64,000 bases of DNA from Phaeacidiphilus oryzae TH49. GTDB taxonomy: Bacteria; Actinomycetota; Actinomycetes; Streptomycetales; Streptomycetaceae. Below the pieces are notes generated by a model. That model had not been told where the DNA came from. It was given only the letters and a program-made list of their open reading frames with translations, and made no database searches. Every line of letters starts with the position of its first letter. The stretch's first letter is position 1. Shown in pieces: positions 2,097 to 16,494 of this stretch. Made by a program: the position numbers and the translations under genes. The stretch lies in the NCBI RefSeq assembly GCF_000744815.1, contig NZ_JQMQ01000005.1, forward strand, positions 2,426,055 through 2,490,054. Direction: 5' to 3'.

Positions 2097-2190
2097 GCTG
2101 ACCAGCCGGTTCGGCCTGCGTAGCTCCGGGCCGCTCGTGGCGGACCCGTGGGGAGGGGATCCCCCCCTCTGCGTGGGCCGGCTGGTCAGC
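2097..2190 (-). terminator. Long inverted repeat overlapping the leuB stop
   Basis: GCTGACCAGCCGG (2097-2109) and its exact complement CCGGCTGGTCAGC (2178-2190) bracket about 70 nt that also contain a GGGGAGGGGATCCCCCCCTC hairpin. The distal arm covers the leuB stop codon (2186-2188). As a stem with internal structure it is a plausible 3' end for the leuB mRNA. No T-tract is present. The rest of the ilvE-leuB interval, 1873-2096, shows nothing else I can name. Confidence 0.5.
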
Positions 2191-3226
2191 CGGCTACTCG
2201 GGCGGCGAGCGCGTCGCCGATCTCGGTGGTGGAACGGGCGGCGGCGCCGCGCTCGGCGAGGTCCGCGGCGACCGCGTTCTCGACCTTCCGGGCCTCCTCC
2301 TCCAGGCCGAGGTGCTGGAGGAGCATCGCGACGGAGAGGACGGTGGCGGTCGGGTCGGCCTTGCCCTGGCCGGCGATGTCCGGCGCGGAGCCGTGCACCG
2401 GCTCGAACATGGACGGGAACTCACCGGTGGGGTTGATGTTGCCGCTGGCGGCGAGGCCGATGCCGCCGGTGACCGCGGCGGCCAGGTCGGTGATGATGTC
2501 GCCGAAGAGGTTGTCGGTGACCACCACGTCGAAGCGCTCGGGCTGGGTGGTGAAGAAGATGGTGGCCGCGTCGACGTGCAGGTAGTCGGTGGTGACCTCG
2601 GGGTACTCCTGGCCGACCTGGTCGAAGATCCGCTTCCACAGCCCGCCGGCGTGCACCAGCACGTTGGTCTTGTGGACCAGCGTCAGCTTCTTGCGCGGAC
2701 GCGCCTGGGCGCGGGCGTAGGCGTCCCGGACGACCCGCTCGATGCCGACGGCGGTGTTGAGCGAGACCTCGGTGGCGACCTCGTTGGGGGTGCCGCCGCG
2801 GAGGGTGCCGCCGTTGCCGGTGTACGGGCCCTCGGTGCCCTCGCGGACCACCACGAAGTCGATCTCCGGCTGGCCGGCCAGCGGGGACTTCACCCCGGGG
2901 AAGAGCTTGCCGGGACGGAGGTTGACGAAGTGCTCGAAGGCGAAGCGGAGCTTGAGCAGCATCCCGCGCTCCAGCACGCCGGACGGCACCGAGGGGTCGC
3001 CGATCGCGCCGAGGAGGATCGCGTCGTAGCCCTTGAGCTCGTCGAGGGTCTCGTCGGGGAGGGTCTCGCCGGTGCGGTGGTAGCGGCGGGCGCCGAGGTC
3101 GTACTCGTTGGTCTCGAGCTTGGCGTCCTCCGGGAGGGCTGCGCTGAGGACCTTGAGGCCTTCGGCCACGACCTCCTGGCCGATTCCGTCACCGGGGATC
3201 ACTGCGAGGCGAATGGTGCGCGACAT
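2186..3226 (-). CDS. leuB: 3-isopropylmalate dehydrogenase
   Basis: 346 residues starting [21 protein letters not shown] longer in-frame extension exists, but the family motif GDGIG falls at the normal distance from this ATG, which has a GGGGAG-type ribosome site upstream. The enzyme oxidises and decarboxylates 3-isopropylmalate to 2-oxoisocaproate with NAD in leucine synthesis. Metal and substrate residues are visible in [19 protein letters not shown] and [15 protein letters not shown], and the NAD loop in [18 protein letters not shown]. The length matches the shorter actinobacterial LeuB type. It stands alone, back-to-back with the PIG-L gene across 322 bp. Confidence 0.95.
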
Positions 3227-3548: not shown

Positions 3549-5815
3549 ATGGCGGGACTGTCAGGTCCGCTGACACGGCGTCAGGCGATACGGCTGGGGG
3601 GTGGCGCGGCCGCGGCGGCGGCCTGCGCGGGGGGCGCCTGGGCCCTGGTGTCGAACGCCCTCTCCGGGGGCGGCGGGGCGACCGCCGGGTCCGACGGAAC
3701 CCGGCCTCCGGTGCTGGCCACCGGGGCCCTGGCGGCCGACGGGCGGCACTCCTACGTCCATGTCATCGCCCACGCCGACGACGGCCTCTACTTCCAGAAC
3801 CCCGAGCTCGAACTGGCGCTGCGCAGCGGCCGGCCGACCGTGACCCTCTGCCTGACCGGCGGCGAGTCCAACGGCATCAACGCCCCGGACCGCCCCGGCG
3901 GCCGCCGCCCGCTGGGGGTGCGGGGCAACCGCCAGGCCTTCGTCCGGGCCCGGATGAACGGCATGCGGCGGGCCTTCGCCTGGATGGCCACGGGGGACGA
4001 GAACAGTCCCTGGAGCATCGAGACGATCTCGCTGATACCCGGCTTCGAGGCGGAGCTGAACACCCTGCGGGCGGCCCCGCACATCCAGGCGATCTGGCTC
4101 CAGCTCTGCGAGGCGCGGGCGGTGGCGGTGCCCAACCCGTTCTCGCTGAAGTCCCTCTGGGTCGGCGAGGAGAACCGGCTGCCGACCCTGCCGCCGGAGG
4201 AGAGCCCCGTCCAGCGGGTGCAGTTCTACCGGCGCGAGGACGTGGTGGCCTCGATACGGGCGGTGCTGGACGAGTACCGGCCGACGGTCGTCCGCACCCT
4301 CGACCCCAACCCCGAGCACAAGCTGCGGCAGCCGGCCGACTGGGCCGCCCCGCACCACCGCCAGGTGCCGCCGCTGCTGCGGCTGCCGGTCTACCTCGAC
4401 CACCAGGACCACCAGTACTCCGCCTACTTCGCCCAGGAGGCGCTGGCCGGCTACTGGTCCACCCCGCAGGCCCCGCCCGGGACGGTGGAGCACTACCTCG
4501 GCTACGTCAACGGCATCCTCCCGTTCAACCAGGACGCGCCGACCACCCTCCACAAGGAGGGGGTGATGGAGGTCTACGGCTGGGCGGACGGCCACGGCTG
4601 CGGAGACCCGGCGGGCTGCGGGGACCGCAAGGTCGGCGTCCGGGGCGCGAAGGGCCCCTGGGCCCGGTCGATCCGCTACCGCGCCCCCGGGTCCAACGGC
4701 TGGGTGCGCCGGCTGCGGGACCGCAGGCTGGCGGCGTTCGCGCTGGTCAGCGGGGCCCCCGCGTGCTGGACCGAGACGGCGCCCGGCAGCGGGCGGTGGA
4801 CCGGCCCGCACCGGCTGCGCGGACCGGCCGGCCCCGGCGGCGGGGCCCTGGAGGGCCAGCTGTTCGCGCTCGCCCAGCCAGACGGCCGGCTGCGGCTCTT
4901 CGGGGTGCGCACCGTGCTGGCCGCGGCCACCGCGGAGCACCGCAGGGAGGTGGTCACCGCGCTCCAGACGACCACCCAGAAGCCCGGCGGCCCCCCGGAG
5001 TTCGGTCCTTGGACCGGCCTCGGCGCCCCCGACGACGTGATCGGGGGCGAGGCCGCCGCGGTCAAGTCGATGGAGATGGGCTACCCGGTGGCGATCCTCG
5101 ACGGACGGCACCGGATCCGGCTCTTCGCCAGGAACTGGGAGGGCGGGGTCTCCACCCGCACCGGAACCATCGCCCCCGCAAGCGGAGCGGCCACCTGGGG
5201 CCCGTGGACCGCGCTGGCCACCGTCCACCAGCACCGGGCACTCACCGGGGTGATGGACGGCCTGGGTGTCGCCCGGGGCGGCGACGGGCGGCTGCACGTG
5301 CTGGCCGCGGGCGCGCGGGGGGTCGTCCACTGGGCCTCCGTGCTGCCGGACGGCCCCTGCGGCCCCAGCCGACGACCGGCCTGCCGGTCTCCGCCGGGCC
5401 GATGAACGCCGTCACCCTCTCGGACGGGACCGTCCGTGTGACCTACCGCGAACCGCTGAGTGCCCGAATCGTGATGGGCGACATCGGTCCCGGCAGCAAC
5501 GGCTGGCGCGTCACCGACGTCTCAGAGGTGGGCGGGTTCGGTCTGGTGGCCGCCGGAGCGGCCGGCCGCAGGACGGTGCTCGCCGCCCGGGACGACCAGG
5601 GACTGGTCGCCTTCGGGGCGGGTACCGGCTGGGTTCAGGGGGGTGTGCCGCTGGTCCACACGCCGGGGCTGGCCGAGGACGCGCAGGGCCGGTTCACCGT
5701 GCTGGCGCTCGGCCCGGACGGTGTGCTCTACACGGCACGGCAGACGGCCTCCCGGCCGGACGCACCGCTCGGCGCCTGGAGCGCGGCCGCGGTGGCCGCC
5801 CGGCTGCCTGGCTGA
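3549..5815 (+). pseudogene. Tat-exported PIG-L family deacetylase with propeller-like C-terminus, frameshifted
   Basis: The N-terminus LTRRQAIRLGGG followed by an Ala-rich stretch is a twin-arginine signal. Residues about 60-330 are a PIG-L (GlcNAc-PI deacetylase-like) domain: HVIAHADDGLYF replaces the usual AHPDDE zinc motif, with LDPNPEH and APHHRQV later. The family removes N-acetyl groups from glycans or small glycoconjugates. After that come beta-propeller-like repeats (GPWTGLGAPDDV, LHVLAAGARGVVHW). The frame opened at 3549 stops at 5405, but the next repeats (TTGLPVSAGPMNAVTLSDG, then DGVLYTARQT) continue in another frame to 5815. One missing base near 5355-5365, in the C-run of GGCCCCAG, would explain it and restore about 755 residues. 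A sequencing error and a real mutation are both possible. The first part alone is an intact 618-residue ORF containing the whole deacetylase domain. Confidence 0.7.
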
Positions 5816-5975
5816 TTTCGGTCCCGTCCAGCACCAGAAGGCACGCCGCGCCACGGAATGGGGGAACGGGCGCGCGGTCGGGGAGCCGAACGGGTCAATC
5901 TCACGTGACCGGCGGCACATTCGGGACACCCAGATGAAAATGCGTCAAGGGGCTTGAGGAGAAGGGGGCCTACGA

Positions 5976-6080
5976 GTGAACGGCTCACAACCGGCTTTTA
6001 CTCGAAGAGTGGACGATGTCCGGCGGCACCCGGCCGTGGAGGCGTCCGGTGCCCCGGAGAAGCAGGAGTACGGGTTGTGA
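5976..6080 (+). CDS. Small ORF (34 aa) coupled to the YfhO-like gene
   Basis: A GTG start at 5976 follows a purine-rich ribosome site (GGAGAAGGGGG), and the TGA stop overlaps the GTG start of the next gene (GTGA, 6077-6080), the classic arrangement for translational coupling. The peptide begins MNGSQPAFTRRVDDV and ends EKQEYGL. It has no membrane segment, and I recognise no family. The first codons are AT-richer than usual, but the last 20 follow normal Streptomyces codon use. It could be a real small protein or a translational relay for the downstream gene. Confidence 0.45.
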   Translation: MNGSQPAFTRRVDDVRRHPAVEASGAPEKQEYGL

Positions 6081-8830
6081 GCACGACCGCGCAAGGGCGC
6101 ACGAGCAGCAGCAGCGGCCCCCACCCGGCCGGCCCTTCGGCCGCGCCCGGGGTGCGGGTGCGCCGCCTCGGCCTGCGCCGCCCCGGTGCGGAGTCCGCCG
6201 CCGCCCTCCTCGCCGCGCTGGCGGCGATGGCCGCGTTCTGCATCGGCACCGCCAAGCTGAACACCTACCCGTTCGGCTCGCGCGGGCGGGCGATCAACGA
6301 CCTGGGCAACCAGTTCGTGCCGTTCCACGCCCATCTCTGGGACCTGATGCACGGCGCGCCCGGCGCGGGCGACCTCCTCTTCAACTGGAACAGCGGCTAC
6401 GGAGTCCCCTTCCTCGGGGACTTCCTCACCTACCTGGCCAACCCCTTCTCCTGGCTGACCTACTTCTTCCCGCGCGACGAGGTCGACCTCCCGGTCTTCC
6501 TCACCACCCTCCTCTCGATCGGCCTGGCCGCCGCGGTGATGACCGCGTTCCTGCGCCGGCTGCACCCGGGCTCGCCCTGGCTGCGGGCGCTCCTCGGCAC
6601 CGGTTACGGCACCTGCGCCTGGGCCCTCAACGACGCCTCCGCGGACCCGATGTGGCTCTGGGGCCTGGTCGCCATCCCCATGCTGGGGATCGTCCTGGAC
6701 CGGGCGCTGCGCGGGCCGCTCCGCCCGGGTGGGTGGATCGGCGGGTCGCTGCTGGTGGCGCTGGCCTGGTTCGGCAACTTCTACACCGCCTCGATGGCCT
6801 CGCTCTGCGCGGTGCTGGTGTTCCTGGTGCGGCTGTGGCTGGCGGGCGGTGACCGGAGGGAGAAGTTCCGGGCACTGCTGCGGGCCGCCGCCCTGATGGC
6901 CACCGGACTGGTGCTGGCACTGCCGGTGCTGCTGGTCTGCCTGAAGTCCAGCCGGCTGGCGGTGCCGGGCGGGGTCACCGGCTACAAGATCCTCAACCCC
7001 CTGGACTTCGCGGGCCAGTTGCTGCCGGGGACCCGGGCCACGTACGGGGTGCCGTATGTGGCGATCGGGATGCTCGGACTGGTCCTGATCCTGGCCTTCC
7101 CGTTCATGCGGCGGATCCGCGGACTCGAGCGGACGCTGTGGTGCGGGCTGCTGCTGGTGGTGGCGGCCTCCTTCGTCTGGAAGCCGACCATCCTCCTCTG
7201 GCAGGGCTTCGCCATCCCCAACGGCAGCCCCTACCGGGAGGCGTTCGTCCTCAGCGCGCTGGGCACGATGGTCGCCTGGCTGGCGCTGGCCCGCCGGCCG
7301 CGCCCCCTCGAACTCCTCGGCGGGGCCGTGCTCACCGCCGTGGTCGCGCTGGTCGCCGCCACCCGGCCGGACACCAACAAGTACAGCTGGACGGCGGTGC
7401 TCGGCTTCGGCACCCTCACCCTGCTGGCGCTGCTCGCCCTCCATCTGGCCCGCGGGCTGCGCTCGCCGCGGCGCCGGCGCTGGGCGCTGCGCGGGACCGG
7501 CGCGGTGCTCGGGGTGCTGGTACTGGGCTGCTCCACCCTGTCGGTGTACGGGATCAACGCGCTGCGGAACCGGGTGCCCTTCTTCGCCCCGCACGTCACC
7601 ATGGACGCCGCCAGCGAGGCGGCCCACAGGTCGCTGCTGGCCACCGACACCTGGCCGAAGGCCCGCACCGAGTCCGGCCCGCATCTGTTCGCGGACAACG
7701 ACCCGCTGCTGCTCGGCGGCGAGGGCGGCGCCTACTACAGCTCCTATGTGCCGGACGTGACCGCCCAGACCTTCTACGACCTGGGCATGGGCTGGTACAT
7801 GAACGGGCGTCACCTGCTGAGCCCGACCGACCCCGGCTCCCGGGCGATCTTCGGGGTCTCGCACGCCCTCTACTCCCACGGGACCGCGAAGGAGACCGTG
7901 CAGAAGGCCGTCGGCGCTTACTCCCCGCTGGTCACCGTCCACCACGGCGGGGACACCGCCCGGCTGCGGATGGACGACCCGTTCGCGCTGCAGAACCTCC
8001 TCCTCGGCAAGGCGGTCTGGCGCGCCCCGGCGGTGGTCCCGACTCCGTCGGCGCCCAAGACCCCCTCGGCCGCCTCGGCGCCCACCGCCACCCGGCTGGC
8101 GAACGGCGAGTGGTCGGTGCCGAGCCACCCGGCGGGCGGGCCCTGGGTCCGCTTCAGCGGCTCCTGCGCCGCGGGCGACGGCATCTACGTCAACGCGCCC
8201 TGGTACCGCGGGGCCGCGACGGCCAAGTCCACCGCGGGCCGCGTCCTCGGCGAGACCGCGCTGAACGGCCGCGCGCCGCGGATGACCGCCAATCCGCTCC
8301 GCCGGATCGGCACCGTGCCGGCGAACGGGCGGTTCACCGTCGCCTTCGGCTCCAACCGGGCGCAGACGGTGCCGGCCCAGCCGGTCGGCTGCCTCTCCCC
8401 GCGCGCGCTGTCCGCCGCGACCGCCGCCCAGCACGCGACCGGGGCCACCCAGGTCACCGCGGGCGGCCACGGCATCGCCGCCGAGCTGCCCGCGCACAGC
8501 ACCGGCACCGCCGTCTTCGCCACCACCGCCGTCACCGGCTGGAACTGCACCACGACCGCCGACGACGGCCGCCGGACGACCCGTCCCGGGGCCTCCTACC
8601 ACGGCCTGCTGGCGGCCCCCCTGGGCGCCGGCTCGAACGCGGTCTCCTGCTCCTACACACCGCCCGGTCTCCGCACCGGGCTCGCCGGGACCGGGGCCGC
8701 GCTGGCCGCCCTGGTCCTGGTCCCGGTCGGCGCGGGACTGCGCCGGCGTCGCGGCGCCGGATCCCCCGGCGCCGCCGCCACCCCCGACTCCGCCGACGCC
8801 GCAGCCGCCGGCCCGGCCCCGAAGAAGTGA
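6077..8830 (+). CDS. YfhO-like polytopic membrane glycosyltransferase (GT-C type)
   Basis: 917 residues from the GTG at 6077, preceded by AGGAG, which I prefer to an upstream in-frame ATG because of the coupling to the small ORF. A short Ser/Pro-rich cytoplasmic start is followed by a first membrane span, then INDLGNQFVPFHAHLWDLM and FNWNSGYGVPFLGDF, typical of YfhO proteins, whose acidic residues in the first outer loop are proposed to act in catalysis. About a dozen spans follow, then a large outer domain (about 510-870) and a last span near the C-terminus ending in basic residues. In Bacillus and Listeria three-component systems, YfhO-type proteins take a sugar from undecaprenyl phosphate and add it to a wall polymer outside the membrane. 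The two genes after it supply the other parts. The acceptor is unknown. Confidence 0.8.
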   Translation: MSTTAQGRTSSSSGPHPAGPSAAPGVRVRRLGLRRPGAESAAALLAALAAMAAFCIGTAKLNTYPFGSRGRAINDLGNQFVPFHAHLWDLMHGAPGAGDLLFNWNSGYGVPFLGDFLTYLANPFSWLTYFFPRDEVDLPVFLTTLLSIGLAAAVMTAFLRRLHPGSPWLRALLGTGYGTCAWALNDASADPMWLWGLVAIPMLGIVLDRALRGPLRPGGWIGGSLLVALAWFGNFYTASMASLCAVLVFLVRLWLAGGDRREKFRALLRAAALMATGLVLALPVLLVCLKSSRLAVPGGVTGYKILNPLDFAGQLLPGTRATYGVPYVAIGMLGLVLILAFPFMRRIRGLERTLWCGLLLVVAASFVWKPTILLWQGFAIPNGSPYREAFVLSALGTMVAWLALARRPRPLELLGGAVLTAVVALVAATRPDTNKYSWTAVLGFGTLTLLALLALHLARGLRSPRRRRWALRGTGAVLGVLVLGCSTLSVYGINALRNRVPFFAPHVTMDAASEAAHRSLLATDTWPKARTESGPHLFADNDPLLLGGEGGAYYSSYVPDVTAQTFYDLGMGWYMNGRHLLSPTDPGSRAIFGVSHALYSHGTAKETVQKAVGAYSPLVTVHHGGDTARLRMDDPFALQNLLLGKAVWRAPAVVPTPSAPKTPSAASAPTATRLANGEWSVPSHPAGGPWVRFSGSCAAGDGIYVNAPWYRGAATAKSTAGRVLGETALNGRAPRMTANPLRRIGTVPANGRFTVAFGSNRAQTVPAQPVGCLSPRALSAATAAQHATGATQVTAGGHGIAAELPAHSTGTAVFATTAVTGWNCTTTADDGRRTTRPGASYHGLLAAPLGAGSNAVSCSYTPPGLRTGLAGTGAALAALVLVPVGAGLRRRRGAGSPGAAATPDSADAAAAGPAPKK

Positions 8831-8838
8831 CGTCGCCC

Positions 8839-9855
8839 ATGAGCATGAGACTCTCCATCGTCGTCCCCTGCTACAACGAGGAAGCGGTCGTCGAGCTCTT
8901 CGACGCCAGGATCCGCGAGACCCTCGCCGACCTCGACGTCGACTACGAGCTCTGCTACGTCGACGACGGCAGCCGGGACGGGACCCTGGACCGGCTGCGC
9001 GCCCTCGCCAAGGCCAGCCCGGACGACACCCGGTACGTCTCCTTCAGCCGCAACTTCGGCAAGGAGGCCGGGATGCTGGCCGGCCTCCGCGAGGCCACCG
9101 GCGACGCGGTGGTGCTGATGGACGCCGACCTCCAGCACCCGCCGCACCTGATCGGCCGGATGCTGGAGCTCTACTCCCTCGGCCACGACCAGGTGATAGC
9201 CAGGCGGACCCGGGACGGCGACAAGCGGGTCCGCAGCGCCCTCAGCAGGCTCTACTACCGGATGGTCAACCGGGTGGTGGACGTCGAACTGGAGGACGGG
9301 GTGGGCGACTTCCGCCTCCTCTCCCGGCCGGCCGTGGACGCCCTGCTGTCCATGCCGGAGTACAACCGCTTCTCCAAGGGGCTGTTCTCCTGGATCGGCT
9401 TCGACACCGTCACCTTCGACTACCAGAACGCCCAGCGCGAGGCCGGCGAGACGAAGTGGCGCTTCGGCTCCCTCCTCAACTACGGCCTGGACGGGCTGAT
9501 CTCGTTCAACAGCCGCCCGCTGCGGCTGGGCATCTACCTCGGCCTGACGCTGGCCTCGATCGCGGTGGCCTACGCCGTGGTGATCACCGCGCTGGCGATC
9601 GTCAACGGGCCCACCGCGCCCGGCTACGTCACCCTGCTGGTGGCCGTGGTCGGACTGGGCGGGCTCCAGATGGTGATGCTCGGACTGGTCGGCGAGTACA
9701 TCGGCCGGATCTACTACGAGAGCAAGCGCAGGCCGCACTTCCTGGTCAAGGAGACCAACGTGCCGCGCTCGGTCTTCCCGGCCGGGAACCGGGTGGATAC
9801 TCGTGCGGGCGCCCTGCTCCAGCAGGGCGAGGAGACCGGGCGGGGAGAGCGCTGA
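8839..9855 (+). CDS. Family 2 glycosyltransferase, polyprenyl-phosphate type (CsbB/GtrB-like)
   Basis: 338 residues. The N-terminal GT-A domain has VVPCYNEE (about 8-15), VDDGSRDGT (about 39-47) and the metal-binding DADLQHPP (about 94-101). Two membrane spans near 230-300 are followed by GLVGEYIGRIYYESKRRPHF, the usual tail of DPM1/CsbB/GtrB proteins. These enzymes load a sugar from a nucleotide donor onto undecaprenyl phosphate on the inner leaflet. The gene begins 8 nt after the YfhO gene and ends 2 nt before the GtrA gene, so the three are one operon. ATG 8839 is taken as start; a second ATG at 8845 is possible. Confidence 0.88.
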   Translation: MSMRLSIVVPCYNEEAVVELFDARIRETLADLDVDYELCYVDDGSRDGTLDRLRALAKASPDDTRYVSFSRNFGKEAGMLAGLREATGDAVVLMDADLQHPPHLIGRMLELYSLGHDQVIARRTRDGDKRVRSALSRLYYRMVNRVVDVELEDGVGDFRLLSRPAVDALLSMPEYNRFSKGLFSWIGFDTVTFDYQNAQREAGETKWRFGSLLNYGLDGLISFNSRPLRLGIYLGLTLASIAVAYAVVITALAIVNGPTAPGYVTLLVAVVGLGGLQMVMLGLVGEYIGRIYYESKRRPHFLVKETNVPRSVFPAGNRVDTRAGALLQQGEETGRGER

Positions 9856-9857
9856 GG

Positions 9858-10403
9858 ATGCCGACGACCGTGCAGAGGCTGCGCCCGCAACTGGCGCAGA
9901 TCGTCCGTTTCGCCCTGGTCGGCGGGGTGAACACCGGGACGTTCTACGTCGGCTACCGGCTGCTGCTGCACACCGGGATGCCGTACTTCATCGCGTACAC
10001 GCTGGCGTTCATCATCAGCATGGTCGGGTCGTTCTTCATGAACACCTACTTCACCTACCGCACCAGGCCGACCTGGCGGAAGTTCCTCTTCTTCCCGCTG
10101 ACCAACCTGACCAACTACGTGGTCACCAGCGTGGGGACGCTGGTGCTGGTCAACGGGCTCGGCCTGGACAAGCGGTACGCGCCGCTGCTGGCCGCGGTGG
10201 CCGCGATCCCCTTCACCTACCTGCTGTCGAAGCGGATCCTGCTGCGCGGCCACACCGACCCGGCCACGCCGGCCGAGGGCGCCGGCCCGCCGGCCACGGT
10301 CGCGGGGGCCACCGCCTCGGCGGCCGCCCCTTCCGCGCCTTCCGCGCCCTCTTCGCCTTCCGCGCCCTCCGCAGCCAAGACCAGGGCGTCTACTCAGCCC
10401 TGA
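9858..10403 (+). CDS. GtrA-like flippase protein
   Basis: 181 residues with four membrane spans. FALVGGVNTGTFYVGYRLL and FIISMVGSFFMNTYFTYR are hallmarks of the GtrA family (PF04138), proposed to flip the undecaprenyl-phosphate sugar outward. A non-conserved Ala/Ser/Pro tail of about 50 residues follows the last span. It starts 2 nt after the GT2 stop. It forms the middle step of the YfhO-GT2-GtrA cassette. Its 3' end overlaps by 10 nt the end of a small convergent gene. Confidence 0.88.
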   Translation: MPTTVQRLRPQLAQIVRFALVGGVNTGTFYVGYRLLLHTGMPYFIAYTLAFIISMVGSFFMNTYFTYRTRPTWRKFLFFPLTNLTNYVVTSVGTLVLVNGLGLDKRYAPLLAAVAAIPFTYLLSKRILLRGHTDPATPAEGAGPPATVAGATASAAAPSAPSAPSSPSAPSAAKTRASTQP

Positions 10404-10528
10404 TCCTCCGGGGCGCCGTTGTCCCTGCGGTCGAGGGCGCGCTGGAGGGCGGCGGCGGCGTTGCGGCGGGCCTCGGCGGCATCGGCCCGGCGCTGGTCGT
10501 CTGCGTGGTAACGGTAGGGCTTGTGCAT
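10394..10528 (-). CDS. Small hypothetical protein (44 aa)
   Basis: ATG at 10526-10528 with the ribosome site GAGGGGAG. The product starts MHKPYRYHADDQRRADAAEA and is very rich in Arg, Ala and Asp, with a helical, charged pattern and no membrane segment. It looks like the short conserved proteins common in Streptomyces, but I cannot name a family. It is convergent with gtrA and overlaps its end by 10 nt. The long upstream extension of the same frame lacks a good start. Confidence 0.6.
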   Translation of the reverse strand: MHKPYRYHADDQRRADAAEARRNAAAALQRALDRRDNGAPEDQG

Positions 10529-10843: not shown

Positions 10844-12430
10844 TCAGTTGGCCAGGTCGACCGAGCGGGCGAACTTGGCGCCGATCTCGCCGACGATCTC
10901 GGCCAGCACCGGCTGCGGGATCTCCCGGTCGACGGTCAGCGAGACCAGCGCGTCACCGCTCTCGGTGTCCGGGGAGACCTGCATCCCCTCGATGTTGATC
11001 TCGGCGTCGCCGAGGATCCGGCCCAGGGTGCCGACCACTCCCGGCCGGTCCTGGTAGCGGAAGAAGGCCATGTGGTCGGTGAGGATCACGTCCACGTCGA
11101 AGCTGTCCACGCCGACGATCTTCTGGATCCGCTTCGGGCCGGAGAGGGTGCCGGAGACCGAGACGGTCCGGCCGTCGTTCAGGGTGCCGCGGACGCTGAT
11201 CACGTTGCGGTGGTCCGGGGACTCGGAGGTGGTGGTCAGCCGGACCTCCAGGCCGCGCTCCTGGGCGAAGAGCGGCGCGTTGACGTAGGAGACCGTCTCG
11301 GCGACGACGTCCTCGAAGACGCCCTTCAGCGCGGAGAGTTCGAGGACCTTGACGTCGTGCTGGGTGATCTCGCCGCGGACCTCCACGTCCAGGCGGACGG
11401 CGACCTCGCCCGCGAGGGCGGTGAAGATCCGGCCTAGGCGCTCGGCGAGCGGGAGGCCGGGGCGGACGTCCTCGGCGATGACCCCGCCCTGGACGTTGAC
11501 CGCGTCCGGGACCAGCTCGCCGGCCAGGGCCAGGCGGACCGACTTGGCCACCGCGATGCCGGCCTTCTCCTGGGCCTCGTCGGTGGAGGCGCCGAGGTGC
11601 GGGGTGCAGACCACGTTGTCGAAGCCGAAGAGCGGCGAGTCGGTGCAGGGCTCCGAGGAGTAGACGTCCAGGCCGGCGCCGGCCACCCGGCCGTCCTTCA
11701 GCGCGGAGATCAGGGCCCCCTCGTCCACGATCCCGCCGCGGGCGGCGTTCACGATCCGGACGGTGGGCTTGACCTTGTGGAGGGCCTCGTCGCCGATCAG
11801 GCCCAGGGTCTCCGGGGTCTTCGGGAGGTGGACCGTGATGAAGTCGGACACCTCGAGCAGTTCGTCGAGGGAGAGCAGCTTGACGCCCATCTGGGCGGCG
11901 CGGGCGGCCTGGATGTAGGGGTCGTAGGCGACCACCTTCATGCCGAAGGCCGACATCCGCTGGGCGACCAGGACGCCGATCCGGCCGAGGCCGACCACCC
12001 CGAGGGTCTTCTCGGCGAGCTCGACGCCGGTGTACTTGCTGCGCTTCCACTCGCCCTGCTTCAGGGCGGCGGTGGCGGCCGGGATGTGACGGGCCGTCGA
12101 GATCAGGAGGCCGCAGGCGAGTTCGGCGGCGGTGACGATGTTGGAGGTGGGGGCGTTCACCACCATCACACCGGCCTTGGTGGCGGCCTGGACGTCCACG
12201 TTGTCCAGGCCGACGCCGGCGCGGGCGATCACCTTGAGGTTCTGCGCCGCCGCGATGGCCTCGGCGTCCATCTTGGTCGCGGAGCGGATCAGGACGGCGT
12301 CCACCTCGGCGAGGGCGGGGAGGAGCTGGGCGCGGTCCGCGCCGTTGCAGGTGCGGATCTCGAAGTCGGGGCCGAGGGCGTCGACGGTCGCGGGGGAGAG
12401 CTCTTCTGCGATGAGAACGACAGGCTTCAA
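10844..12430 (-). CDS. serA: D-3-phosphoglycerate dehydrogenase
   Basis: 528 residues. It catalyses the first step of serine synthesis, oxidising 3-phosphoglycerate with NAD. There is no ATG or GTG near the conserved start KPVVLIAEELSPATVDAL. A TTG at 12428-12430 preceded by AGGA gives the usual length, so TTG is the likely start. The NAD site is GLGRIG near 146-151, the catalytic Arg is in NAARGGIVDE, the Glu in GLDVYSSEP and the His in TPHLGAST. After the catalytic core come the allosteric substrate-binding domain and a C-terminal ACT domain (RPGVVGTLGRIL), the long type found in actinobacteria. It lies downstream of ilvC across a long inverted repeat. Confidence 0.93.
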   Translation of the reverse strand: MKPVVLIAEELSPATVDALGPDFEIRTCNGADRAQLLPALAEVDAVLIRSATKMDAEAIAAAQNLKVIARAGVGLDNVDVQAATKAGVMVVNAPTSNIVTAAELACGLLISTARHIPAATAALKQGEWKRSKYTGVELAEKTLGVVGLGRIGVLVAQRMSAFGMKVVAYDPYIQAARAAQMGVKLLSLDELLEVSDFITVHLPKTPETLGLIGDEALHKVKPTVRIVNAARGGIVDEGALISALKDGRVAGAGLDVYSSEPCTDSPLFGFDNVVCTPHLGASTDEAQEKAGIAVAKSVRLALAGELVPDAVNVQGGVIAEDVRPGLPLAERLGRIFTALAGEVAVRLDVEVRGEITQHDVKVLELSALKGVFEDVVAETVSYVNAPLFAQERGLEVRLTTTSESPDHRNVISVRGTLNDGRTVSVSGTLSGPKRIQKIVGVDSFDVDVILTDHMAFFRYQDRPGVVGTLGRILGDAEINIEGMQVSPDTESGDALVSLTVDREIPQPVLAEIVGEIGAKFARSVDLAN

Positions 12431-12604
12431 CGGTGGTCCTAACCTCGCGGGCGGGTTCTCGCGGTGCGCGCTTCGCCGAGCGCGTACCGCCACAGTAGCC
12501 ACGAGGGGTGGAACGCTTTTCGCCTGTTTGGCAGGTGCGGAGGGGACGGCCCTGCCGGACTGGACAATCCGCCCCGGCCCCCGGAGGTCAGTGGCCTGCC
12601 GAAG

Positions 12605-12684
12605 CGCGCGGTTCCCCGCGCCCCTTTCCGGCCCTTCGGGCCGCTGCGCCCAAGGCGCAGAAAAGGGGCGCGGGGAACCGCGCG
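12605..12684 (-). repeat. Inverted repeat between ilvC and serA
   Basis: Arms of 23 nt pair exactly (12605-12627 with 12662-12684) and share the core TTCCCCGCGCCCC with the repeats at 733, 26029 and 57529. The loop holds two further hairpins, GGCCCTTCGGGCC (12630-12642) and CTGCGCCCAAGGCGCAG (12644-12660). It sits downstream of ilvC and may end or process that transcript. The rest of 12431-12735 shows no gene. Confidence 0.7.
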
Positions 12685-12735
12685 GCCAGCCCGCTACGGC
12701 GGGAGAGCGGCCGACGAGCGGTCAGTCGACGCCCG

Positions 12736-13983
<1,248 letters not shown>

Positions 13984-13984
<1 letters not shown>

Positions 13985-14508
13985 TACGCGCTGCGGTCCA
14001 GCGCCCGGAGGGAGCGGTCGGTGATGGAGCGGGCTCCGCGGCCGATGGCGACCATGCCGGACTGGACGAGCTCCTTGATGCCGAAGGGCTCCAGCATCCG
14101 GAGCATCGCCTCCAGCTTGTCCGAGCTGCCGGTGGCCTCGATGGTGACGGCGTCCGGGGAGACGTCGACCGTCTTGGCGCGGAACAGCTGCACGATCTCG
14201 ACGATCTGCGAGCGGGTCTCGTTGTCCGCCCGGACCTTCGCCAGGACCAGTTCGCGACGGACCGCCTGCTCGGGGTCGAGCTCGACGATCTTTATCACGT
14301 TGACCAGCTTGTTGAGCTGCTTGGTGACCTGCTCCAGCGGCAGGTCCTCCACCGCGACGACGATGGTCATCCGGGAGATGTCGGGGTGCTCGGTCGGTCC
14401 GACGGCCAGCGATTCGATGTTGAATCCGCGGCGGGAGAACAGGGCCGCGATCCGGGCCAGCACGCCGGGCTTGTTCTCGACCAGGACGGAGAGGGTGTGC
14501 TTGGACAT
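13984..14508 (-). CDS. ilvN: Acetolactate synthase small (regulatory) subunit
   Basis: 174 residues. The N-terminal ACT domain starts SKHTLSVLVENKPGVLARIAAL and contains RRGFNIESLAVGPTE, the valine-sensing region. The C-terminal domain contains QAVRRELVLAKV. It partners IlvB and makes the enzyme sensitive to valine. The gene starts 14 nt after ilvB, so the two are cotranscribed. Mass and motifs are standard for the ilvN/ilvH family. Confidence 0.95.
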
Positions 14509-14522
14509 GTTCTGACGCTCTC

Positions 14523-16379
14523 TCACTCTTCGTTGTCGCCGAAGTCGGGGCGGACGTCGCGGGCGGCCATGATCTCGTCGTTGTTGGTGCCGGCGGCGAC
14601 CATCGGCCAGACCATCGCGTCCTGGTGGACGATGAAGTCGATGACCACCGGGGCGTCGTTCAGCGAACGCGCCTGCTCGATCACCGCGTCCAGCTGGTCC
14701 GGGGACTCGCAGCGCAGCCCGTGGCAGCCCATCGCCTCGGCGAGCTTCACGAAGTCCGGGATCCGGGTGCCCTGGGCCGGCTGCTCCTTGCCGTCGTGCC
14801 CGGGGCCGGAGTGGAGCACGGTGTTGGAGTAGCGCTCGTTGTAGAAGAGGGTCTGCCACTGCCGCACCATGCCGAGCGAGCCGTTGTTGATCACGGCCAC
14901 CTTGATCGGGATGTTGTTCAGCGCGCAGGTGACCAGCTCCTGGTTGGTCATCTGGAAGCAGCCGTCGCCGTCGATCGCCCACACCTCGGTGCCGGGCTGA
15001 CCCGCCTTGGCGCCCATCGCCGCCGGGACGGCGTAGCCCATGGTGCCGGCGCCGCCGGAGTTCAGCCAGGTCGCGGGGTGCTCGAACTGGATGAACTGGG
15101 AGGCCCACATCTGGTGCTGGCCCACGCCGGCCGCGTAGATCGCGTCCGGGCCGACCAGCTGCCCGATCCGCTCGATCACCTGCTGCGGCGTCAGCAGACC
15201 GTCCGGAGCCGGGTCCCAGCCCAGGGGGTAGGTCTTCCGCCAGCCGCCCAGCTGCTCCCACCAGGCGGTGTAGTCGCAGGCGCCGGGGGTGTGGTCGAGC
15301 TCGTTCTGGACCGCGACGATCAGGTCGGCCAGCACCTCGCGGGCGTCGCCGACGATCGGCACGTCCGCGGCCCGGTTCTTGCCGATCTCCGCCGGGTCGA
15401 TGTCCGCGTGGACGATGGTCGCGTACGGGGCGAAGCCGTCCAGCTTGCCGGTCACCCGGTCGTCGAAGCGGGCGCCCAGGGCGATGATCAGGTCGGCCTT
15501 CTGCAGCGAGGTGACGGCGGCCACCGTGCCGTGCATCCCGGGCATCCCCAGGTGCTGCGGGTGGGAGTCGGGGAAGGCGCCGATGCCCATCAGGGTGGTG
15601 GTCACCGGGGCCTTGGTCAGCTCGGCCAGGATCTTCAGCTCGGCCGTGGCCCGGGCCTTGAGCACGCCGCCGCCGACGTACAGCACCGGGCGCCTGGCCT
15701 GCGCCAGCAGCCGGGCGGCCTCCCGGATCTGCTTGCCGTGCGGGCGGGTCACCGGGCGGTAGCCGGGCAGCTGGTGCTCGACCGGCCAGCGGAACACGGT
15801 CTGCTTCTGCATCGCGTCCTTGGCGACGTCCACCAGCACCGGGCCGGGACGGCCGGTGGCCGCGATGTGGAAGGCCTCCGAGATCACCCGCGGGATGTCC
15901 GCCGCGTCGGTGACCAGGAAGTTGTGCTTGGTGATCGGCATCGTGATGCCGCAGATGTCCGCCTCCTGGAAGGCGTCCGTGCCGATCGAGGTGGAGGCCA
16001 CCTGGCCGGTGATGGCGACCATCGGCACCGAGTCCATGTAGGCGTCGGCGATCGGGGTGACCAGGTTGGTCGCGCCCGGGCCCGAGGTCGCCATGCACAC
16101 CCCGACCTTGCCGGTGGCCTGCGCGTACCCGGTGGCGGCGTGGCCGGCGCCCTGCTCGTGGCGGACCAGCACGTGCCGCAGCTTCTCGGAGTCCATCAGC
16201 GGGTCGTAGGCCGGGAGGATCGCGCCGCCCGGGAGGCCGAAGACGGTGTCGACGCCGACCGCTTCGAGGGAGCGGATGAGGGACTGTGCGCCGGACATGG
16301 TCTCGGCGACGGTCGGTTGGGCGGCGCCGGCGTCTGCCGATGCCTCCCCGCGATGGTGGGCGGCGGCCTGCTCAGTCAT
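14523..16379 (-). CDS. ilvB: Acetolactate synthase large (catalytic) subunit
   Basis: 618 residues from ATG 16379. It joins two pyruvates, or pyruvate and 2-oxobutyrate, using thiamine diphosphate. The N-terminal ThDP domain has [16 protein letters not shown] and the catalytic Glu in [18 protein letters not shown]. The ThDP/Mg motif is [19 protein letters not shown]. The first 65 residues before [15 protein letters not shown] are poorly conserved, so a later start is possible. The attenuator upstream, with the leader peptide containing Ile-Leu-Val-Leu, indicates control by branched-chain tRNA charging. It is first gene of ilvBN, possibly ilvBNC. Confidence 0.95.
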
Positions 16380-16494
16380 CTGCCTGTCTCTTCTCGGCTG
16401 AGGGTGGCGGGTTCGAGAGGGGGGTGCTGGGGGCTGGGGCCCCGTCGGGATCCGAGCGGTCCGAGCGGCGAGGCTGCGAACCCGTTGGAGCAAC

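Follow-up and report, generated by a model that had tools for sequence, protein, structure and literature searches.

A YfhO-type glycosylation trio beside a predicted exported PIG-L deacetylase in Phaeacidiphilus oryzae: a possible system for adding and deacetylating a wall polymer sugar

What might a predicted exported deacetylase be doing beside a set of genes for outer-face glycosylation? The question is raised by positions 3549-10403 of a 64,000-nucleotide stretch of Phaeacidiphilus oryzae DNA (the window). Four plus-strand genes lie there, encoding in order a PIG-L deacetylase, a YfhO family GT-C protein, a polyprenyl-phosphate GT2 glycosyltransferase and a GtrA protein, flanked by leuB and serA, both on the minus strand. 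The gaps between YfhO, GT2 and GtrA are at most 8 bases, and 261 bases separate YfhO from the end of the PIG-L homologous sequence. Because the same gene order recurs in relatives, the set is not a product of chance. The leading answer, held slightly too weakly to be called probable, is that a CsbB/GtcA/YfhO-type system adds an N-acetylhexosamine to wall teichoic acid and that a lectin-armed PIG-L enzyme de-N-acetylates this sugar outside the cell.

An earlier interpretation of this DNA (the sequence-only reading) had recognized a three-component glycosylation set at 6077-10403, and protein family comparisons bear this out. YfhO matches PF09586 at 202.8 bits (cut-off 28.5), GT2 matches Pfam Glycos_transf_2 at 108.5 bits (cut-off 23.3) and GtrA matches PF04138 at 75.4 bits (cut-off 26.1). 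The GT2 gene (8839-9855, plus strand) encodes a polyprenyl-phosphate glycosyltransferase of the GtrB/PgfS kind, which matches Synechocystis GtrB across residues 2-304 (259 bits) and retains the DAD (9121-9129), GDFRL and TKW motifs. The GtrA family membrane protein (9858-10403, plus strand) is a putative flippase.

YfhO (6077-8830, plus strand, GTG start) has 917 amino acids, and its structure model reaches a mean predicted local distance difference test score (pLDDT) of 70.9. The model shows a GT-C fold: its matches among known structures are AftD (Z 16.4 over 511 residues) and STT3, PglB and ArnT (Z 12-16), and Foldseek returns AftD and ArnT at E values of 1e-5 to 7e-4. Since a helical model can score as high as Z 14 against unrelated structures, the clear match to the whole set of GT-C enzymes carries more weight than any single Z value. 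A sequence search of the PDB with YfhO returned nothing at E 1. The sequence-only reading had made its case depend on the conserved acidic residues of the family, and these are present: D75 and D89 in 48/48 actinobacterial rows and D115 in 45/48. D75 (6299-6301), which follows membrane helix 1, is the likely catalytic acid by comparison with GT-C enzymes. Hydrophobicity and the model place a large outer domain (residues 499-864, 7571-8668) between the last two membrane helices. Within it, residues 646-775 resemble a porphyran-binding module (Z 9.0) and the carbohydrate-binding modules CBM4/CBM6 (Z 7-8).

These are the same three protein families as in the CsbB/GtcA/YfhO system of B. subtilis, Listeria and S. 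aureus. There too the last two helices of the GT-C protein are joined by a large outer domain, as the available part of one account describes for B. subtilis YfhO (PMC5836110). According to the accessible parts of the literature, CsbB and YfhO place N-acetylglucosamine (GlcNAc) on B. subtilis lipoteichoic acid, and their Listeria relatives attach it to wall teichoic acid (PMC5836110, PMC8035078). The window set differs in that it is actinobacterial, in that all three genes are adjacent in one run, and in that it is joined to an exported PIG-L, which is absent from the available portions of those descriptions (PMC5836110, PMC8035078).

By analogy, GT2 would charge undecaprenyl phosphate with a sugar, probably GlcNAc or N-acetylgalactosamine (GalNAc), and GtrA would flip the lipid-sugar to the outer face. 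YfhO, with its carbohydrate-binding-like module, would then pass the sugar on to a polymer of the wall, the likeliest being wall teichoic acid. Finally, PIG-L, exported by the twin-arginine translocation (Tat) route and anchored by its lectin-like propeller, would remove the N-acetyl group, leaving a cationic hexosamine on an anionic polymer. The parts for the first three steps are well supported by sequence and fold, and the reactions assigned to them are those that their families suggest. The sugar, the acceptor, the deacetylation and the order of steps are proposals based on which genes lie together and on the enzyme families concerned. The known substrates of PIG-L enzymes are N-acetylated amino sugars, which points to GlcNAc or GalNAc as the sugar; wall teichoic acid is the most likely acceptor because of the gene neighbourhoods described below.

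The same machine could serve another acceptor, with exported proteins being glycosylated as by Pgf of S. mutans and PIG-L trimming protein glycans. The top NCBIfam matches point this way, to a PgfS-like GT2 (386.5 bits) and a PgfM-like membrane protein (YfhO against PgfM2 and PgfM1, 77.9 and 55.1 bits), and the available part of one study reports that Pgf modifies Cnm and WapA (PMC5856776). In leuB loci of the Kitasatospora type, the group also has an S8 subtilase gene beside it. However, all three scores lie under the equivalog cut-offs (500, 1500 and 1400, respectively), the window has no adjacent epimerase gene, and TagF-type genes neighbour five of the six copies away from leuB. Protein glycosylation is accordingly judged improbable, and wall teichoic acid is kept as the preferred acceptor.

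The fourth gene (3549-5405, plus strand) encodes a PIG-L family deacetylase with a Tat-type signal, a PIG-L domain (Pfam residues 72-257) and the first part of a propeller. Its match to PF02585 (27.7 bits, E 4.3e-6) narrowly misses the cut-off of 28.2; among five homologues scanned, L043, L033, L049 and L074 score above it (36-48 bits) and L045 below it (17.0). The metal-binding motifs of the PIG-L/LmbE kind are present. The first, H75-A-D77-D78 (3771-3782), which we take to hold metal ligands and the catalytic base, has H75, D77 and D78 identical in 48/48 homologues. In D284-H285-Q-D287-H288 (4398-4412), presumably the second metal-ligand motif, D284 and H288 are identical in 48/48, and H285 and D287 in 47/48. 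The window protein shares the HxDD and DHxDH motifs with the PIG-L/LmbE zinc de-N-acetylases, a family that includes PIG-L, MshB and BshB, and has a domain match just under the cut-off. It differs from them in its predicted export and its predicted lectin-like propeller.

The sequence-only reading had claimed a Tat-exported PIG-L with a propeller-like domain upstream of the trio, and both features find support. At the N-terminus, a twin-arginine motif precedes a hydrophobic segment. An RR pair stands upstream of HxDD in 46/49 PIG-L rows, the window included, by a loose test that also catches RR pairs outside signals; inspection by eye of the YfhO-linked clade finds RR before the hydrophobic stretch. 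For the propeller, an intact ortholog from Kitasatospora sp. DSM 101779 (L043) was modelled. PLL/PHL lectins are its top Foldseek match (E 2e-14), with template modelling scores (TM-scores) on target of 0.43-0.57 and 16-20% identity, in a whole model of mean pLDDT 47.5 of which the propeller is the better modelled half. A PDB sequence search with the intact ortholog gave one match only, at E 0.42. The PLL/PHL lectins of Photorhabdus are seven-bladed; the window-type propeller differs from them in being fused to a deacetylase.

What the sequence-only reading overlooked in this gene, while correctly reporting its presence, is a frame break in a C-rich run at 5354-5366, which was located by alignment with 12 homologous rows of unbroken frame from 10 loci. 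The frame stops at 5405, and homologous propeller sequence continues in another frame (5402-5815, plus strand). The offset is consistent with one base missing from the C-run at about 5354-5357, which either a true mutation or a fault of the assembly could explain. Because the break lies 3' of the expected active-site motifs, the cell would still produce the catalytic domain, followed by a shorter propeller; the window deacetylase may therefore be truncated, unless the break is an assembly error. Relatives carry PIG-L as one unbroken frame, and called homologues measure 463-780 amino acids, with at least 672 in 45/48. A programmed frameshift was considered and is thought unlikely: no usual in-frame slippery heptamer was found on reading the sequence, and the relatives have a single frame.

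Are PIG-L and YfhO neighbours by accident? Across 150 genomes of the window's family, the window PIG-L was matched in 67, with at most eight candidates scored per genome, so that some PIG-L places may be missing, and the YfhO family was matched in 78, of which 76 were over the cut-off. Distances between match starts were counted for 67 PIG-L rows of at least about 185 bits and 75 YfhO rows of at least about 146 bits. Among PIG-L rows above 400 bits, 16/18 lie within 8 kb of YfhO, whereas only 1/49 of the weaker rows do; the window is one of the 18, to which two genomes contribute two rows apiece, and per genome the figure is 14/16. Both thresholds, the 400-bit split (placed where scores drop from 446 to 299 bits) and the 8 kb distance, were chosen after the list had been inspected. 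For this reason, and because the rows share descent, the 16/18 count is no probability. The co-occurrence check that had been proposed for these genes shows that the neighbours are not random. A class-level PIG-L search matched 13/295 genomes at E <=1e-30, all in the window's own family; with three candidates scored per genome, absence outside the family is not firm.

Phylogeny points the same way. On the PIG-L tree (49 rows), linkage to YfhO requires three changes, whereas shuffling gives 15.7 on average, and in a clade supported at 100%, 19/21 rows are YfhO-linked. In the YfhO tree (48 rows), a fully supported branch sets apart 31 rows, which include all 20 that are PIG-L-linked. The other 17 rows of that tree were picked as unlinked, the loci L090-L107 having been selected for showing no PIG-L within 8 kb, so neither their missing PIG-L nor the shuffles of the YfhO tree count as evidence. 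Both trees are quick ones, with support from the Shimodaira-Hasegawa-like approximate likelihood ratio test (SH-aLRT) only. L069 and L071, repeats of L043 and L044, were omitted from the PIG-L tree and from locus clustering, and the YfhO tree omits L108, whose contig has the same length as that of L035, and an incomplete YfhO from L052. The window YfhO has as its sister row that of L002, where a YfhO-GT2-GtrA trio (12470-16439) sits on a 639 kb Streptomyces plasmid with no PIG-L in 31 kb.

The site beside leuB is itself conserved. PIG-L, YfhO, GT2 and GtrA adjoin leuB in 11 relatives (L043, L044, L045, L047, L065-L068, L070, L072 and L073), which span two genera other than the window's (codes g3 and g13), and serA lies within the fetched stretch in 10 of the 11. 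The suggestion in the sequence-only reading that the island may be accessory is rejected on this evidence: a set found beside leuB in two genera is old in the family and not specific to one strain. Two of these relatives (L045 and L047) have a tandem PIG-L pair and a second YfhO at the locus, the extra copies lying inside the group, with single GT2 and GtrA genes. In L065 (15134-16735), L047 and L068 (g3), a further gene directly follows GtrA; the L065 copy encodes a PMT_2 protein, so that one lipid-sugar may serve a pair of GT-C enzymes there, as proposed for PgfM1/PgfM2. Eight Kitasatospora-type loci encode a protein of 989-1132 amino acids between the glycosylation genes and serA (L043 at 12923-15892, L032, L035, L044, L067, L070, L072 and L073). 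In L043 this protein is an S8 subtilase that has a PA domain; the window has no room for one.

Conservation at one stable chromosomal site is also what would be expected if the genes were neighbours by descent and shared no pathway. The 11 relatives that keep the single site beside leuB fit this explanation, and since they share one site they are not independent cases. Against it stand six YfhO and PIG-L loci away from leuB (L033, L034, L036, L049, L050 and L052). In three of them, from Streptomyces (L033, L034 and L036), a YfhO-GT2-GtrA run is convergent with PIG-L; in L049 and L050, YfhO and PIG-L stand together on the same strand with no GT2 or GtrA in the stretch; and in L052 the two are divergent, with GT2 and GtrA coming after PIG-L. 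Because the pair recurs in several arrangements, mere co-location is unlikely, and descent without a common pathway is given very little credence.

The loci away from leuB also carry the link to teichoic acid. L033, L034, L036, L049 and L050 have as neighbours a fusion of GT2 and CDP-glycerol glycerophosphotransferase (TagF-GT2), a GT4 and a GalE epimerase, which by sequence are genes of wall teichoic acid type; the L033 fusion matches PF04464 at 322 bits. L052 neighbours GalE and a relative of the GT2 type. In the 18 comparison YfhO loci without nearby PIG-L (L090-L107, one of only 8 kb), no polymerase, GT4 or epimerase was found at 55 bits or more. The window genome has a single match to the window PIG-L protein, a single YfhO gene and three PF04464 matches, one of which groups with a GT4 and GalE (G000:C5, near 4.15 Mb). 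Its TagF-GT2, GT4 and GalE are 61%, 54% and 68% identical, respectively, to the L033 genes. The window genome thus contains the group within which some relatives place YfhO and PIG-L.

PIG-L might instead act on another GlcNAc of the wall, and be co-located with YfhO since both serve wall building; the substrate may then be peptidoglycan, the teichoic linkage unit, or teichulosonic or teichuronic acid-like chains. Wider PIG-L homologues that adjoin wall hydrolases or TagF genes in the absence of YfhO are what this explanation would predict, and L061, L063 and L074 combine TagF-GT2, GT4 and PIG-L with no YfhO nearby. It is countered by the clade structure, YfhO-linked PIG-L being mainly one clade (19 of 21 rows), and by L032, L035 and L109, which keep YfhO at leuB and lack GT2 and PIG-L together there (L032 and L109 retain GtrA). 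These three are few and related, and GT2 was searched at the leuB locus only. A separate substrate is possible, on the unlikely side.

Several further observations weigh against a wall teichoic acid sugar added by YfhO and deacetylated by PIG-L. The window and the 11 relatives have their genes at leuB, outside the teichoic cluster, and the five teichoic-linked loci repeat, with little change, about two arrangements. Where PIG-L loci have no YfhO nearby, TagF-GT2 and GT4 occur in only 3/26, and some of the other YfhO-less loci adjoin peptidoglycan hydrolases, so the wider PIG-L family may act on another polymer. The two families also occur apart: the close PIG-L orthologs L046 and L048 show no YfhO within the fetched 20 kb, and the trios L002, L039 and L040 show no PIG-L in the stretch examined. 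As to the enzyme itself, the N-terminal half of PIG-L is poorly modelled (pLDDT <50), and the copy in the window is frame-broken. Sugar identity cannot be read from sequence. Streptomyces walls, moreover, are described in the available part of one source as containing mainly teichulosonic acid, often GlcNAc-substituted, together with poly(diglycosyl 1-phosphate) (PMC11481543), so the acceptor could be either of these polymers. For S. griseus, the accessible portion of another reports wall teichoic acid with a sugar modification (PMC13274773).

A more specific form of the preferred reading is that YfhO and PIG-L make up a write-and-edit system, in which YfhO adds an N-acetylhexosamine and a dedicated PIG-L frees the amine to give a zwitterionic wall teichoic acid. 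This is doubtful as it stands, with the greater part of the probability elsewhere. If true, it would act as a switch of charge comparable to D-alanylation. It could also keep the sugar unrecognized by phages or by the lectin-guided toxins of rival Streptomyces. A receptor of antibacterial umbrella toxins is a sugar polymer on Streptomyces wall teichoic acid, as far as the available text goes (PMC13274773), so changes in wall sugars could decide who is attacked. The teichuronic acid-like decoration of the utr genes likewise puts sugars on Streptomyces wall teichoic acid, with a TarS-type glycosyltransferase and an epimerase; it differs in being built by genes other than those of the window, and deacetylation and PIG-L go unmentioned in the accessible part of the account (PMC13274773).

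As far as the literature was searched, the three-component part is a known type of system, and its tie to an exported, lectin-armed PIG-L is apparently undescribed. The search found no work joining YfhO and PIG-L, nothing linking PIG-L with teichoic acid in Streptomyces, and nothing on a secreted PIG-L deacetylase together with N-acetylglucosamine and teichoic acid. Outer-face glycosylation by YfhO has been studied in Firmicutes, and the available part of a review of it names neither Streptomyces nor Actinobacteria (PMC8035078); some members of the YfhO family in Actinobacteria are noted in the accessible portion of another source (PMC5836110). The actinobacterial version adds candidates for an editing enzyme and for the acceptor. 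If the preferred reading is right, it would offer a genetic way into the free hexosamine of walls in actinobacteria.

Two further gene associations were seen among the relatives. A weaker homologue of the PIG-L-propeller protein stands at or near a glnE-type family in nine genomes (L053-L060 and L064); the L054 member is glnE, encoding glutamine synthetase adenylyltransferase. In the Paractinoplanes loci L038 and L041, YfhO has no close GT2, GtrA or PIG-L match nearby and is followed by a shared family of about 320-360 amino acids (c79).

In the window, the conserved left neighbour leuB (2186-3226, minus strand) and the conserved right neighbour serA (10844-12430, minus strand) were placed by gene calls and locus comparison. 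The genome (G000) is 7.8 Mb in size, and the guanine-plus-cytosine content across the first 12 kb of the window is 69-77%. A minus-strand frame of 44 codons (10394-10528), rated coding by a codon-usage gene caller, overlaps the 3' end of GtrA.

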